33,866 nucleotides of DNA. Source: Dehalococcoidia bacterium (lineage in GTDB: Bacteria > Chloroflexota > Dehalococcoidia > DSTF01 > JACRBR01). Positions within the stretch are counted from its first letter, which is position 1. Each line of letters opens with the position of its first letter. A program made the position numbers and the translations under genes. The notes beneath the pieces are model-generated. The model was not told where the DNA came from. It saw only the letters and a program-made list of their open reading frames with translations, and did no database searches. The stretch spans positions 15,182 to 49,047 of the forward strand of contig JBBDXD010000017.1 of assembly GCA_040902535.1 (NCBI GenBank). Reading direction: 5' to 3'. Positions 8,835 to 23,856 of this stretch are shown piece by piece.

Positions 8835-8971
8835 CGTCATCCTGGGCAAGCGCCCCATTCACGTCATCCTGGGCAAGCGTCGCATGACGTCATCCTGAGC
8901 AAGCGTCGCATAACGTCATCCTGAGCAAGCGAAGCGCCCCGAAGGATCCCCTCACGGCGACACGACGTCAC
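8835..8971. repeat. Tandem 26-base palindromic repeats, first block (four copies)
   Basis: Copies start at 8835, 8862, 8888 and 8914, giving a period of 26-27. Each begins CGTCATCCTGRGCAAGCG. The first three are truncated and end TCGCAT(A/G)A or similar. The fourth runs on to a full unit ending GAAGGATCCC. In full units ATCCT and AGGAT can pair around a GAGC/GCG interior, so the element can fold as an imperfect hairpin. No coding potential. Confidence 0.8.
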
Positions 8972-16660: not shown

Positions 16661-16872
16661 GGGCGCGGCGCCGCCGTGCGGCGCTTCCTCCTCGGGTCGG
16701 CGCGAGTGGTGCGGAACGAAGCTAAACCAAGCGTTCGTGCTTCCCTTCACGAATAGCACCGCAGCCTAGGTGGAGCAAGCCGCCAAACTTCAACGAAGGA
16801 CGGCAGCGGCACAGGTAGCTGCGTGGCGTTAACGACATGGTCGGTTTGACACATTGAGCGCCGAGGCGGAGG

Positions 16873-17784
16873 TCAGTTTTCTCGGCGGATCTTGCCGTAA
16901 AAGGGGTATCTGCTGCGCGGCGACGACAACAGGAATGGCCTCCATGGTGTCCAGCCGCGCGGGAGCTTCACTTTGTCCGATAGGAACATGACTTCGCGTC
17001 CTTCGTATCGGCCTTGAGCAGTGTACTTGAGGCCGTAGAGTATCGAGCGATTGCGCGGAAGTATGCCGTGTTTGATTGCCGAAATGTCGTAGGTCATGAC
17101 CCACGGTTGCTTCAGTCGGTTCACCTCGCGAGCCAATCGCCGATGATCGTCCAGTCCGTAAAGGTTGAGGTACAGATCCTCACCGCTTTCGATGTACGGC
17201 GGATCGTAGAACGCGAACGTGTTCTTGCCGAGGCTTGGGAGCGTATCCCTTGTGAAGTCGAGCGCATCCGACTGATAGAGCGTGATGCGGCTGCTATAGC
17301 GACCGATCCGCCGAATGCGGGCAACGAGTTCACTCTTGTTGAATCGTGCGTCGATGCCCCACGCGCCGGTCTGGTTCTTTCCGCCGATCACACCACCATC
17401 GATGATGCCGGATCGGTTTGTGCGGTTCAGGAACAGGGTCGCATAGCCGAGGTCAGCGAGGTCGGCGGTCTCGCGCTTCTCGCAGACTCCGCGCTGTATC
17501 TGCCACTCGGACATCGTTAGCTCGGCGTGCTCGATCCTTCGGCAGAGTTCCTCCGTCTCGTTCAGCACCGTATGCCAGAACGCGAACACCGGTCGGCTCA
17601 GATCGTTGATGTGGACGGCGGACGCATATTCGTCGAGTAGGAGCGTTAGGGCTACAGCCGCGCCGCCCGCGAATGGCTCGACGTACTGCACATCCTTGAG
17701 GCCATTTTCATCTAGCAGTTGTTTGATCGCGCTGGCAAGACGCCGCTTGCCGCCGGGATAACGCAGAGGCGTGTAGTACGGCAT
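16873..17784 (-). CDS. DNA adenine methyltransferase, D12 class
   Basis: The 303-residue enzyme should transfer a methyl group from SAM to N6 of adenine in a short DNA site. Motifs fit the Dam/DpnM (D12) family: RYPGGKR (8-14), the SAM-binding EPFAGGAAV (36-44), LNRTNRSGI (119-127), the GGKNQTGAWGIDARFNK segment (134-150) and catalytic DPPY (194-197). The C-terminus ends in a basic tail. It lies 46 bases downstream of a ParB-like gene on the same strand with no restriction endonuclease beside it. Base composition is visibly less GC-rich than the cta genes, consistent with recent transfer. Its target site is not predictable from sequence. It could be a solitary epigenetic methylase or part of a defence/anti-defence pair. 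Confidence 0.92.
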   Translation of the reverse strand: MPYYTPLRYPGGKRRLASAIKQLLDENGLKDVQYVEPFAGGAAVALTLLLDEYASAVHINDLSRPVFAFWHTVLNETEELCRRIEHAELTMSEWQIQRGVCEKRETADLADLGYATLFLNRTNRSGIIDGGVIGGKNQTGAWGIDARFNKSELVARIRRIGRYSSRITLYQSDALDFTRDTLPSLGKNTFAFYDPPYIESGEDLYLNLYGLDDHRRLAREVNRLKQPWVMTYDISAIKHGILPRNRSILYGLKYTAQGRYEGREVMFLSDKVKLPRGWTPWRPFLLSSPRSRYPFYGKIRREN

Positions 17785-17830
17785 GCCTTGTAGTCTAGGC
17801 CAATTTTCCGAATCTGGCCAGCCGCAAAAT

Positions 17831-19144
17831 CTAAGGCGCCCAAACCGCGATCATGTAGGACTGCAAGTTGTTCCAGCCAACCCGCAGATCGACAGGGCCG
17901 GGGAAGATCCACTGATTGTGGACGTAAGCGTTCATCAACGGCGTGGATGCAGCAAGGAACGTGTCCTTCGCCGCGGACTTCCTCACGGCCTCCACTTGCT
18001 TCTTGTTGAGCTTTTGCAGTGACAGCAAATGGTCGGCGACCTGGTTCATCTTCGCACTGAGGCTCACCTTTTGCGGCGGGAGCGGCGGTAGATTCTTAGC
18101 GTCGATGTAGCAGTCCGTGCTCAACTCAACGAACACGCGAAACAACACGCTGACGGCGTTCGACAAGTCTGCGAGCTTCATCCTCCGCAACTCTTTCTCG
18201 ATCTCAAGACAGCGCGCGTCAGACACGCTGAGCGCGCAGTCCTTTGGAATGAGTTCCGTGCGTGTCTTTGGCAGCTTGACCGACGCCGCGCGCGGTGCCT
18301 TGGTTTGTGCGACACCGGTCGTCGCATCGACTCCTCGTCCACTACTGCGAGTCGCCTTCACGAGCGGAAGCTTCTTTGCGTAGGCGACGCGCTGGCCCTT
18401 CGTATAGATGTCCGCGACCTTGGTTTTCTGGGATGCCAGATCCTTCGCGACATGCGTCAGTGCCGCCGCGACTTTTTTCTCGTTCGCAAGCAGCATGAGC
18501 GTGCCATTTTGGACTTCGACGCCCATCCTCTCTCGAAACTCCGGCGTGCCCAGCAATCGCCTCAAGCTCGTGGCCGGTACGCGAGCGCGCTCAGCAGCCG
18601 TGATCGCCCCCCGGCTCTCAAGGAAGTCGAGGGCTTGCAAGTGGATCTCCGGCTTCCCTGTGCGCGTCTTGTAGCGATTCGACTCCTCGGAACCCCATTT
18701 GACTAGGCCCGCGCCGCCTTGCTCCCCGGTGTGCCGAAGCTCGATCCAATGCGCTGCGGCGTCGCGGCTCGTCACGACTTCGCAGGCAATCGACTGGATC
18801 GGATCGTTCTGATATTGCTGGCTCAGCTTGCGCACCGCCGCGAGCACTTGCTTGGTCGCGACATCGGCGATCAGTTCTGGATTCTCCAGCACTCTCACAG
18901 CAGTCAGGCGTCGATTCCCTTCGAGCACGATGTGCCTACCGGGGTTGCCGTCGGCCGGCATCACGATCGGTAGTTCCGACGGATTCAACCCGTACTCCTG
19001 GATATCGCTGGCCAGCTTTATGAGCTTTCGGCCCTGCGCCGCTGCTATGCCTTTGATCGCCTCGTTCTGCCCGGTGCTCGGCTGTCGAATGCGCGGGTTC
19101 TGAGTGTCTATCAACAGGTCAGCGGGTCGGATGTTGTCGCTCAT
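17831..19144 (-). CDS. ParB/Srx-fold protein with unassigned C-terminal domain
   Basis: Residues 1-90 form a ParB N-terminal-like domain: an IDTQNPRIR strand (12-20), a helix LIKLASDIQEYGL (41-53), then HIVLEGNRRLTAVRV (71-85). The GNRRLTA stretch corresponds to the ParB GERRxxA nucleotide-binding box. The middle (about 90-300) is helical and charged. The last third (about 310-437) has a helical bundle ending in NAYVHN and VGWNNLQSYM, unlike chromosomal ParB, which has a leucine-zipper-like dimer domain. There is no ParA partner and no parS-like site. It precedes the adenine methyltransferase in a two-gene unit with its own -10 element and GGAGG ribosome site. Function unknown; a nuclease, CTPase switch or DNA-binding regulator are all possible. 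Confidence 0.8.
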   Translation of the reverse strand: MSDNIRPADLLIDTQNPRIRQPSTGQNEAIKGIAAAQGRKLIKLASDIQEYGLNPSELPIVMPADGNPGRHIVLEGNRRLTAVRVLENPELIADVATKQVLAAVRKLSQQYQNDPIQSIACEVVTSRDAAAHWIELRHTGEQGGAGLVKWGSEESNRYKTRTGKPEIHLQALDFLESRGAITAAERARVPATSLRRLLGTPEFRERMGVEVQNGTLMLLANEKKVAAALTHVAKDLASQKTKVADIYTKGQRVAYAKKLPLVKATRSSGRGVDATTGVAQTKAPRAASVKLPKTRTELIPKDCALSVSDARCLEIEKELRRMKLADLSNAVSVLFRVFVELSTDCYIDAKNLPPLPPQKVSLSAKMNQVADHLLSLQKLNKKQVEAVRKSAAKDTFLAASTPLMNAYVHNQWIFPGPVDLRVGWNNLQSYMIAVWAP

Positions 19145-19249
19145 ACGGGTGGTTCCTCCGGCGGGGAGTATAGATCAGATGAAATGAAACGACGGGAGCA
19201 TCTTCATGAACGTCCCGCCGGTCTCTAGCCATAGTAGCGCTCGGAGTAT
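19145..19249 (-). promoter_or_regulatory. Promoter and ribosome site of the ParB-like/methyltransferase unit
   Basis: Read on minus, TATACT (19167-19172) is a good -10 box 22 bases before the ATG at 19144, with GGAGG (19156-19160 region) as ribosome binding site. The sequence just upstream is AT-rich (GTTTCATTTCATCTGATC) but has no clear -35. The strong -10 so close to the gene indicates independent expression of the island. Confidence 0.5.
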
Positions 19250-20533
19250 TCAATCGCAGCGACGCGTTGGACACGTTCGCCTGCCGCCACCCACCCCCTG
19301 CCTAAACCGCCGCAACGGCGAAAACACCAACCACAACCCCGCGACGTTGATCCCCACGCACGAGATCAACAACCCCTCTCGCAACCCGGCCGCCTCCGCC
19401 GTCACGCCCGCGACCAGCGCACCCAGCGGCCGCAGCCCCAGGCTGGCGAACAGGAACACAGCGTTCACGCGCCCCAGCTGCTCCTCAGGCGTCACCGTCT
19501 GCCGCAGGCTCACCGCTTCGATGTTGTGGATCGACCACAGCACGTCGCCGATGCCCTGCTCGCACGCCAGCATCGACAGCGCGAGCCAGGCCGGCCCGCC
19601 GGCGACCGGCGTCAGGAACGACAGGCCGGCCGCCATCACGTACGTCGTCGTGATGCTGCGCCCGAGCCCCATCCCGCGCGCCAACGGTGACGCGAGCGCC
19701 GCCCCGAAGATCGACCCCGCGCCGCCCGCCGCCAGCAACAGTCCCAGCGTCAGCGCCGAAAATCCAAGCCCGTCGATCACCCACAGCCCGTACAGCGTGA
19801 CGATGAAGCCGCTGAAGAAGCTGTACGTCGCCACCATCGCCAGGATCGCGCGCAGCACCGGCTGTTCGACGGCCGTCCGGAATCCCTCGAGCGCCTCCAC
19901 GACCGCCGACCGCCGCTTCACCGCCGGTCGCGTTGCCGGGATCCGCACCCGCGCGAGAAACACGCCCGACACCAGGAACGTCAGCGCGTCGACGAGCATC
20001 GCGACCGGCGCCGTCGCCGCCTGCACGATCCCGCCGCCAATCGCCGGGCCGGCGCTCGCCGCGACCGAATCGCTCATGCCCAGCGCGCTGTTCGCGTCGA
20101 CCAGGCGCTCCTTCGGCACGACGTCCGGCACGGTCGAAGAAAACGCCACGCTGAACGCCACGCCCAGACAACCCGTCACGAACGCTACGGCGTAGAGCTG
20201 CTCCACGCGCAGTTCGCCCGACACGGCGACGACCGGCACCGAGATCAGCGCCGCGAAGCGCCCCGCATCTGCGAAGATCATCACCGGTATGCGCGGCAAC
20301 CGGTCGACCCACACGCCGGCGAGGATCGCGACCAGCAGCACCGGCACGCTCGATGACGCCGCCAGCACCCCCATCTGGCGCGGCGAAGCGTCGAGGTAGA
20401 CCAGCGCCGTCAGCGAGAGCGCGCCGAACGTCGTGCCGAAGTGCGACACCGTGCTGGCCGCCCAGAGATTGCGGAAGGGACCACGTTTCCAGAGAACGTC
20501 GGGAAATACGCGCGCGTCGCGCAGAAACCTCAT
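19250..20533 (-). CDS. MFS efflux transporter (EntS/macrolide exporter-like)
   Basis: The 427-residue protein has about 12 hydrophobic helices and the MFS signature loop between helices 2 and 3 (LAGVWVDRLPRIPVMIFAD). It fits the MFS_3 group, which contains the enterobactin exporter EntS and Mef-type drug exporters. Helix 5 has VPKERLVDANSALG, typical of this group. It probably exports a small hydrophobic molecule by proton antiport; the substrate is unknown. The frame is open ten codons further (20563), but ATG at 20533 has GAGGTG five bases upstream and avoids starting inside a hairpin. A short leader ORF and hairpin directly upstream suggest inducible translation. Confidence 0.9.
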   Translation of the reverse strand: MRFLRDARVFPDVLWKRGPFRNLWAASTVSHFGTTFGALSLTALVYLDASPRQMGVLAASSSVPVLLVAILAGVWVDRLPRIPVMIFADAGRFAALISVPVVAVSGELRVEQLYAVAFVTGCLGVAFSVAFSSTVPDVVPKERLVDANSALGMSDSVAASAGPAIGGGIVQAATAPVAMLVDALTFLVSGVFLARVRIPATRPAVKRRSAVVEALEGFRTAVEQPVLRAILAMVATYSFFSGFIVTLYGLWVIDGLGFSALTLGLLLAAGGAGSIFGAALASPLARGMGLGRSITTTYVMAAGLSFLTPVAGGPAWLALSMLACEQGIGDVLWSIHNIEAVSLRQTVTPEEQLGRVNAVFLFASLGLRPLGALVAGVTAEAAGLREGLLISCVGINVAGLWLVFSPLRRFRQGVGGGRRTCPTRRCD

Positions 20534-20536
20534 CGG

Positions 20537-20588
20537 GCACCTCGATGCAAATGCAAAAGCCACGGTCGCTTGCCCGTGGCTCAGGTGC
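20537..20588 (-). promoter_or_regulatory. Hairpin that can sequester the MFS ribosome binding site
   Basis: On minus, AGCCACGG and CCGTGGCT (20558-20581) form a perfect 8-base-pair stem with an 8-base loop, followed by a short T-rich stretch. Flanking it, GCACCT (20583-20588) is complementary to AGGTGC (20537-20542), which contains most of the MFS gene's GAGGTG ribosome site. The two helices can stack into one extended structure that hides the ribosome site four bases before the start codon. It could also act as a weak terminator. Confidence 0.5.
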
Positions 20589-20609
20589 TCCGACGCAGCG
20601 GACTACGTC

Positions 20610-20678
20610 TCAGTCTCTCCGTGCGGACGGCCCGGCAGGCAAGCGCGTTCGAGTGCTCGATGAGACCAAGCAACGCAT
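20610..20678 (-). CDS. Short upstream ORF (22 residues), possible leader peptide of the MFS gene
   Basis: The ORF begins ATG at 20678, seven bases after a near-perfect ribosome site AAAGGAGGT (20686-20694), the strongest such site in the window, and stops with TGA at 20610-20612. The peptide starts MRCLVSSS, is Arg-rich and ends SARRD. It is too short for a globular protein. It lies 77 bases before the MFS start codon, just upstream of the hairpin that can mask that gene's ribosome site. This arrangement matches translational attenuators of drug-resistance genes such as erm and cat. Function as a leader peptide is inference. Confidence 0.5.
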   Translation of the reverse strand: MRCLVSSSTRTRLPAGPSARRD

Positions 20679-20871
20679 CGCGCTTACCTCCTTTCCGTCC
20701 TTGGCTCGCGCGACCGCCGCGCGACGTCCGTGCTCCATCCAACGACAGCCGCCCGCCGAAGTCAAGACGAATCAGCTCGCGACGAGAACCGCAAACCCGG
20801 CGCATCGCACAGGTGCCCGCGAGTGACATCAACACCGTCGATGCAGACCGCGACCGGCGTACCATCTCCCC
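20679..20871. other. Leader and upstream region of the MFS unit
   Basis: No gene is supported beyond the leader ORF. On minus, TTGACT (20760-20765) is followed after 17 bases by TTGGAT (20737-20742), a weak promoter candidate about 43 bases before the leader ORF ribosome site. On plus, a TACCAT box near 20856-20861 precedes an ATG at 20872 whose frame runs straight through the decamer array. Confidence 0.35.
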
Positions 20872-20885
20872 ATGACCAACGCCGT

Positions 20886-21011
20886 GCGCCGCCATCCATC
20901 TGCGTCCATCTGTGACAAACCCCGTCCACGCGCCGTCATCAATCTGTGCCCATCTGTGGCAACCCACCCCTCATCCATCTGTGCCAATCTGCGCCCATCT
21001 GTGGAAAACCC
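20886..21011. repeat. AGATGG decamer arrays, three sub-arrays
   Basis: Read on minus, there are three clusters of two to three ten-base units. Examples are CACAGATGGG-CGCAGATTGG-CACAGATGGA, then CACAGATGGG-CACAGATTGA, then CACAGATGGA-CGCAGATGGA. Each cluster is preceded by a GGTTTTC, GGTTGC or GTTTGT head and followed by TGAGGGG, TGACGG or TGGCGG. It is the largest array of this family in the window. No coding potential; the apparent ORF through it is a translation of the repeat. Confidence 0.8.
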
Positions 21012-21098
21012 CCACGCAACGCACTCAATCAAACCGGACAATCAAGTTCAGCTTCCGATCGTCCCGATGCGCAGACAAAAAATGCAAACAATCAAGAT

Positions 21099-21126
21099 TT
21101 GATCGTCCGCCCACCGCGGCTATCAT
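21099..21126 (+). promoter_or_regulatory. Promoter candidate for the Zn alcohol dehydrogenase
   Basis: TTGATC (21099-21104) and TATCAT (21121-21126) are separated by 16 bases, in an AT-richer patch 48 bases before the ADH start codon. The transcript would begin near 21133 with a leader of about 40 bases. Confidence 0.5.
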
Positions 21127-21173
21127 CAAACTCCGCCGATCGGCGCATCAAGTAACAAGAAGGAGCAGCCACC

Positions 21174-23733: not shown

Positions 23734-23856
23734 CGCCGATCGTACGGACGCAACTCTGATGGCGCCAGGCGCCATCCGCCGATCGTAGGGACGCACCTCT
23801 TACGGCGTCCCAAGCGTCATAACGCCGATCGTAGGGACGTAGCTTTAGCTGCGTCC
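23734..23856. repeat. Three tandem GTAG-headed REP-like palindromes
   Basis: Copies begin CGCCGATCGTA at 23734, 23777 and 23823, spaced 43 and 46 bases. The third copy is the best preserved: GTAG followed by GGACGTAGCT-TT-AGCTGCGTCC, a 10-base-pair stem with one G-T pair. The second keeps only the outer six pairs (GGACGC/GCGTCC). The first is GTAC-headed and runs into a second palindrome, GATGGCGC-CAG-GCGCCATC. A 5' GTAG head and imperfect hairpin is the form of REP elements mobilised by RAYT transposases. A fourth, degenerate copy is at 28291-28320. Confidence 0.7.

Follow-up and report, generated by a model that had tools for sequence, protein, structure and literature searches.

A Chromosomal PD-Lambda-5 Pair in a Dehalococcoidia Bacterium: Co-Inheritance, Domain Anatomy, and a Possible Mechanism

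Related Systems and the Dehalococcoidia Locus

PD-Lambda-5 is a phage-defense system of Escherichia coli that came to light when isolates of this species were screened functionally, and its protective effect was confirmed with a panel of phages (Vassallo et al. 2022; PMC9519451). Several other systems resemble parts of it. Fusions of a ParB fold to a HEPN domain, such as Saro_3948, have been listed, and HEPN domains linked to restriction–modification (R–M) systems, these fusions among them, have been argued to act as suicide RNases (Anantharaman et al. 2013; PMC3710099). PrrC/PrrI and other R–M-linked HEPN nucleases are similar in their working, in that a DNA-modification system holds a HEPN RNase or lies close to one; MntA–HepT contains a related HEPN fold, and the CTP clamps ParB, Noc, and KorB, of chromosomal type, a related N-terminal fold.

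The window analyzed here, that is, the whole stretch of 33,866 nucleotides from a Dehalococcoidia bacterium, carries two ATG-started genes on the minus strand, gene A (17831..19144; 437 aa) and, downstream of it after a gap of 46 bases, gene B (16873..17784; 303 aa). Both open reading frames lie where a first-pass annotation, which described a ParB-fold protein 46 bases upstream of a D12 adenine methyltransferase, had placed them. The PADLOC profiles cover the two proteins essentially end to end: PD-Lambda-5_A matches A with an E-value of 7.1e-121 (residues 3–435 on positions 5–464 of a 466-position profile) and PD-Lambda-5_B matches B with an E-value of 1.7e-107. B is a D12/Dam-like N6-adenine DNA methyltransferase, with PF02086 as its sole Pfam family (E 1e-16), 7m6b (E 3.6e-12) and DpnM 2dpm (E 1.3e-5) as the nearest solved structures, and an intact DPPY catalytic motif IV at residues 194–197 (17194..17205, minus strand). 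Not a single Pfam or NCBIfam model matches A, which therefore looks like an orphan, and a PDB sequence search with A returned nothing significant.

The pair is almost certainly a PD-Lambda-5 anti-phage defense system: it has the same two proteins, A then B, on the same strand, with a short gap and full-length profile matches. A homologous pair sits next to the portal gene of a P2-like prophage of E. coli, and its two proteins are 24% identical to A (E 1e-40; HMM E 1e-105) and 42% identical to B (E 2e-82; HMM E 3e-115). Whereas the E. coli example resides in a prophage, the present copy is chromosomal and stands between housekeeping genes, with no recognizable prophage. Protection against phages was demonstrated with the E. 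coli system and is predicted for the Dehalococcoidia copy. As PD-Lambda-5 is already described, what is new is one more copy, a chromosomal one from Dehalococcoidia. Two other E. coli loci matched through the methylase (L224, L225) were set aside; there, an annotated AAA ATPase, not A, adjoins the methylase. These prophage-type regions (L224:5890-8450 and L225:3843-6555), with related DNA adenine methylases beside an AAA-family ATPase, suggest that methylases of this type also serve with other partners.

Beside B, whose neighborhood consists of A, ctaA, and a gene of the MFS family, neither an endonuclease ORF nor an endonuclease domain was found. A classical type II R–M system was thus rejected, as it would require the methylase to be accompanied by a restriction endonuclease gene of its own. 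The earlier statement that the island has no restriction enzyme holds for classical enzymes, but the C-terminal domain of A, of HEPN type, is a candidate effector. It had also been noted that ParA and integrase are missing, and neither was found beside the pair.

The pair is an acquired insert. In five same-family genomes, ctaA and adh are divergently oriented neighbors, while in the window they are separated by 4.4 kb (16760..21173) that hold B, A, and the MFS gene and are absent from relatives; these limits are the presumed extent of any single insertion event. Neither A nor B was present in the seven same-family genomes searched. The lower GC content already remarked on in the first-pass annotation was borne out, at 0.586 for B and 0.600 for A against 0.65–0.70 for five flanking genes (ctaC, ctaB, ctaA, the MFS gene, and adh). 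GC3 is lower as well (0.72 and 0.76 against 0.86–0.92). Because the composition of the MFS gene is native, the A–B pair may have come separately from it. The ends of the insert showed no integrase, no tRNA, and no clear target duplication. Among the best 80 of 320 relatives, the closest homolog of A (54–55%) belongs to an Acidobacteria genome, which fits horizontal transfer.

Upstream of the gene A start codon is the sequence GGAGGAACC. The first-pass annotation had given the pair its own TATACT promoter element. The hexamer does exist on the minus strand (19172-19167), where it may be a weak −10 element of gene A; it has no −35 match, and a sigma-70 scan found no promoter there, so that a promoter is possible at most.

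Repeats were observed both within the window and outside it. Four copies of a 10-bp-periodic CCATCTGYGN repeat lie between the MFS gene and adh (window 20886-21010), and the 17-base pattern of this element has 43 matches across the genome of the window, against three for the reversed control. About 4 kb before the window start, some four 139-bp tandem repeats, 97% alike (L221:10578-11113), contain CATCTGTG, the same element. Short tandem repeats also occur at 8835-8931 (26-bp unit, 3.7 copies) and 23734-23839 (43-bp unit, 2.4 copies).

Pairing of A and B across Genomes

Scanning one genome per species with an alignment yielded 320 relatives of A, of which the best 80 were kept; 77 of these loci were testable, the three others ending at contig ends. 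B adjoins A in 75 of the 77, on the same strand in 74 and convergently in one. Where both genes are complete (71 pairs), they are separated by a median of 8 bp, every B has the DPPY motif, and the distance matrices of A and B correlate with r = 0.75, the highest value among 1,000 permutations being 0.15 (mirror-tree). A and B thus form a real, co-inherited two-gene module, and the co-occurrence check proposed with the first-pass annotation comes out in favor of genes that travel together. The compact DNA-modification module suggested there is accordingly real, but it is the known anti-phage system PD-Lambda-5 and not a module without precedent. Among the best 80 of 320, hosts include Chloroflexota, Acidobacteriota, Gemmatimonadota, Bacteroidota, and Pseudomonadota, as well as Bdellovibrionota, Bacillota, Cyanobacteriota, Actinomycetota, and archaea. 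On viral contigs, the alignment-based scan gave one or more relatives, and a scan with the single protein gave none.

A quick tree served for coarse placement only. Within the main lineages, and among the best 80 of 320, A without B occurs only as a 260-aa stump, cut off ahead of the HEPN domain (L049). This is what one would see if a complete A harmed cells that have no B. The rarity of intact A on its own in these lineages is predicted by a self-marking or an antidote role of B, of which it is not proof. Separately, two loci of a divergent clade, L022:4959-6290 (a plasmid locus that came from a separate plasmid search) and L095:2682-3995, carry A at full length, its HEPN motif intact, with no methyltransferase nearby; B is therefore not needed in every lineage.

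Such strict pairing, the toxin-like HEPN fold of A, and the position of the pair as a recent insert would also suit a selfish addiction or regulatory module with no part in defense, in which B, as an antitoxin-like methylase, silences A, and A kills cells that lose B. We hold this to be improbable, given that the E. coli homolog was recovered and validated in a screen for phage resistance (PMC9519451), although addiction and defense roles are not mutually exclusive.

Domain Anatomy of PD-Lambda-5_A

An AlphaFold2 model of A, built from 72 sequences, has a mean pLDDT of 91 and consists of a ParB-CTPase fold, a ParB-like helical middle, a disordered linker, and a HEPN domain. Residues 1–150 (18695..19144, minus strand) adopt the ParB-CTPase (ParB/Srx) fold: in VIA-align comparisons, they superpose on Caulobacter ParB (7bm8) with a Z of 10.0 over 97 residues at 2.1 Å, and the ten best matches are all ParB, Noc, or KorB, including structures with bound CTP or CDP. 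The switch-type N-domain that the first-pass annotation had considered for A is in line with this CTP-switch fold. The GNRRLTA box reported there corresponds to residues 76–82, and its nucleotide-binding part, GNRR (residues 76–79; 18908..18919, minus strand), is invariant in the 72 homologs. Judging from this box and the ParB-type fold, A is predicted to bind a nucleotide, which need not be CTP, as the ParB-CTPase fold holds CTP, ATP, and GTP binders alike (PMC12704722). The helical middle (approximately residues 127–260; 18365..18766, minus strand) partly superposes on the DNA-binding region of KorB, Noc, and ParB, with a Z of 9.2 for KorB 8qa9 (range 1–261, 175 residues, 4.8 Å) and of 7.8 over 172 residues for Noc 7nfu. 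It is followed by a linker modeled with low confidence (pLDDT under 50 around residues 279–286).

The ParB fold and the GxRR box are what A has in common with the chromosomal clamps, and they are also all that speaks for a plasmid or chromosome segregation ParB that happens to lie beside an unrelated orphan methylase. Unlike these clamps, A has a HEPN domain in place of the ParB C-terminal dimerization domain, no ParA gene adjoins it, and no parS-like site was found within three mismatches anywhere in the window. Furthermore, the methylase is co-inherited with A. A segregation role, hardly credible, is refuted by this strict co-inheritance and by the C-terminal fold.

The first-pass annotation had called the C-terminal helical domain unfamiliar. 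This stands insofar as no Pfam or NCBIfam family matches it, yet the AlphaFold prediction resolves residues 306–437 (17834..18229, minus strand) as a HEPN domain and not as a ParB dimerization domain, the alternative outcome that the annotation had envisaged. Folded alone, these residues reach a pLDDT of 92 and a pTM of 0.87. The joint-best PDB matches of the isolated domain are 2hsb and HepT 6m6u, both with a Z of 9.1 (over 113 residues at 2.9 Å for the latter), and HEPN-type chains fill the top 18 places (Z 9.1 to 6.0), Legionella HEPN-MNT, Lactococcus AbiA, and Csm6 among them. Next come MtlR and AbiV, also counted as HEPN relatives (PMC3710099), with unrelated rows from a Z of 5.1 down. 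In the full-length model, the same residues likewise match HEPN toxins. Pfam searches with C-terminal pieces of A gave only sub-threshold matches, including one to the HEPN family DUF4145. Because a Z of about 9 counts as moderate where folds are helical, and the Foldseek search with the isolated domain gave nothing significant (E 0.25), the HEPN assignment relies on the consistency of the match list and on the motif; on these grounds, the modeled C-terminal domain of A is a HEPN fold.

Its putative catalytic histidine is H409 (17918..17920, minus strand), at the end of helix 401–409, where HEPN proteins carry the histidine of the Rx4-6H motif. It is found in 72 of the 72 homologs and, together with its surroundings, forms the most conserved part of the A C-terminus. 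The motif lacks its arginine: L, F, or M occupies position 404, whose polar neighbor is N or H in all 72. The preceding long helix 2 bears an acidic residue, E340, in 69 of 72 homologs, and an invariant arginine, R336 (18137..18139, minus strand; 72 of 72), which may stand in for the missing one. Some HEPN families have the histidine but not the arginine, whose role may fall to a different conserved basic residue (Anantharaman et al. 2013; PMC3710099). In view of these families and of the invariant R336, we infer from the model that A carries a variant HEPN active site, with its arginine displaced to R336. By analogy with other HEPN proteins, ribonuclease activity is predicted for the domain, which could instead, as the Rx4-6H arginine is missing, be a non-catalytic binding domain.

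This active site also sets A apart from its relatives. Compared by description, the HEPN–ParB fusion group mostly keeps Rx4-6H (PMC3710099), whereas A is without that arginine; a search of two Novosphingobium plasmids, pNL1 and pNL2, gave no match and did not turn up Saro_3948. HepT has an RX4HXY motif where A has [N/H]xYVHN, without R, and A has no nucleotidyltransferase antitoxin beside it, in contrast to MntA–HepT. As to PrrC/PrrI, A differs in uniting sensor and HEPN in one protein, in using a ParB fold and not an ABC ATPase, and in having no separate restriction enzyme.

The missing arginine would be easier to understand if the ParB-fold domain itself nicked or cut unmethylated phage DNA, A then being a compact restriction enzyme and its HEPN domain a dimerization or regulatory part. 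Precedents exist, since the ParB/Srx fold includes reported DNA nickers and GmrSD and SspE restrict DNA with the related DUF262 fold (PMC12839542, PMC12373910), and GmrSD_N is matched weakly by 4 of 72 A members (best E 0.003). However, searches of A showed no HNH, PD-(D/E)XK, or HKD nuclease domain, its closest structural matches are nucleotide-bound ParB proteins, that is, switches and not nucleases, and conservation in the C-terminus is strongest around H409. Direct restriction is thus an unlikely reading, though by far less so than segregation. As the likely effector is the C-terminal HEPN domain, RNA is a likelier target than DNA.

A Possible Mechanism for PD-Lambda-5

The identity of the pair, its co-inheritance, its domain folds, and its acquired position are established here; a way in which the two proteins could work together may be proposed from them. 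First, B is likely to methylate adenine at target sites of the host and so to mark self DNA, as expected from its family. Second, A would bind a nucleotide through its ParB-type fold and survey DNA through its ParB-like N-terminal and middle regions, unmarked incoming DNA letting it load or clamp while marked DNA would not; the arguments for and against this step seem to us evenly balanced, a sensing of DNA methylation by A being plausible. Third, loading would release or dimerize the C-terminal HEPN domain, tethered by the disordered linker, and this domain would probably act as the effector, cleaving RNA (tRNA or mRNA being the probable substrates) and stopping growth before phage release. 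Taken as a whole, an explanation that joins R–M logic to abortive infection, with a ribonuclease replacing the restriction enzyme, is the one towards which we lean slightly.

In itself, the locus is ordinary, being one more member of a defense system that occurs in numerous bacterial phyla and in some archaea. Of potentially greater interest is the family-wide anatomy: a ParB CTP-switch fold, a linker, a HEPN domain whose active site is unusual, and a strictly co-inherited methyltransferase. This anatomy leads to a concrete and testable mechanism for PD-Lambda-5, for which none was reported in the literature found. In its most specific form, which we put forward tentatively and with some doubt, PD-Lambda-5_A would be a methylation-gated clamp, whose ParB-type switch, loading onto DNA that lacks the mark and onto no other, would activate a HEPN ribonuclease in which R336 replaces the usual catalytic arginine. 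If true, this would be a new principle of activation, in which a CTP/NTP clamp on DNA controls an effector that cuts RNA.
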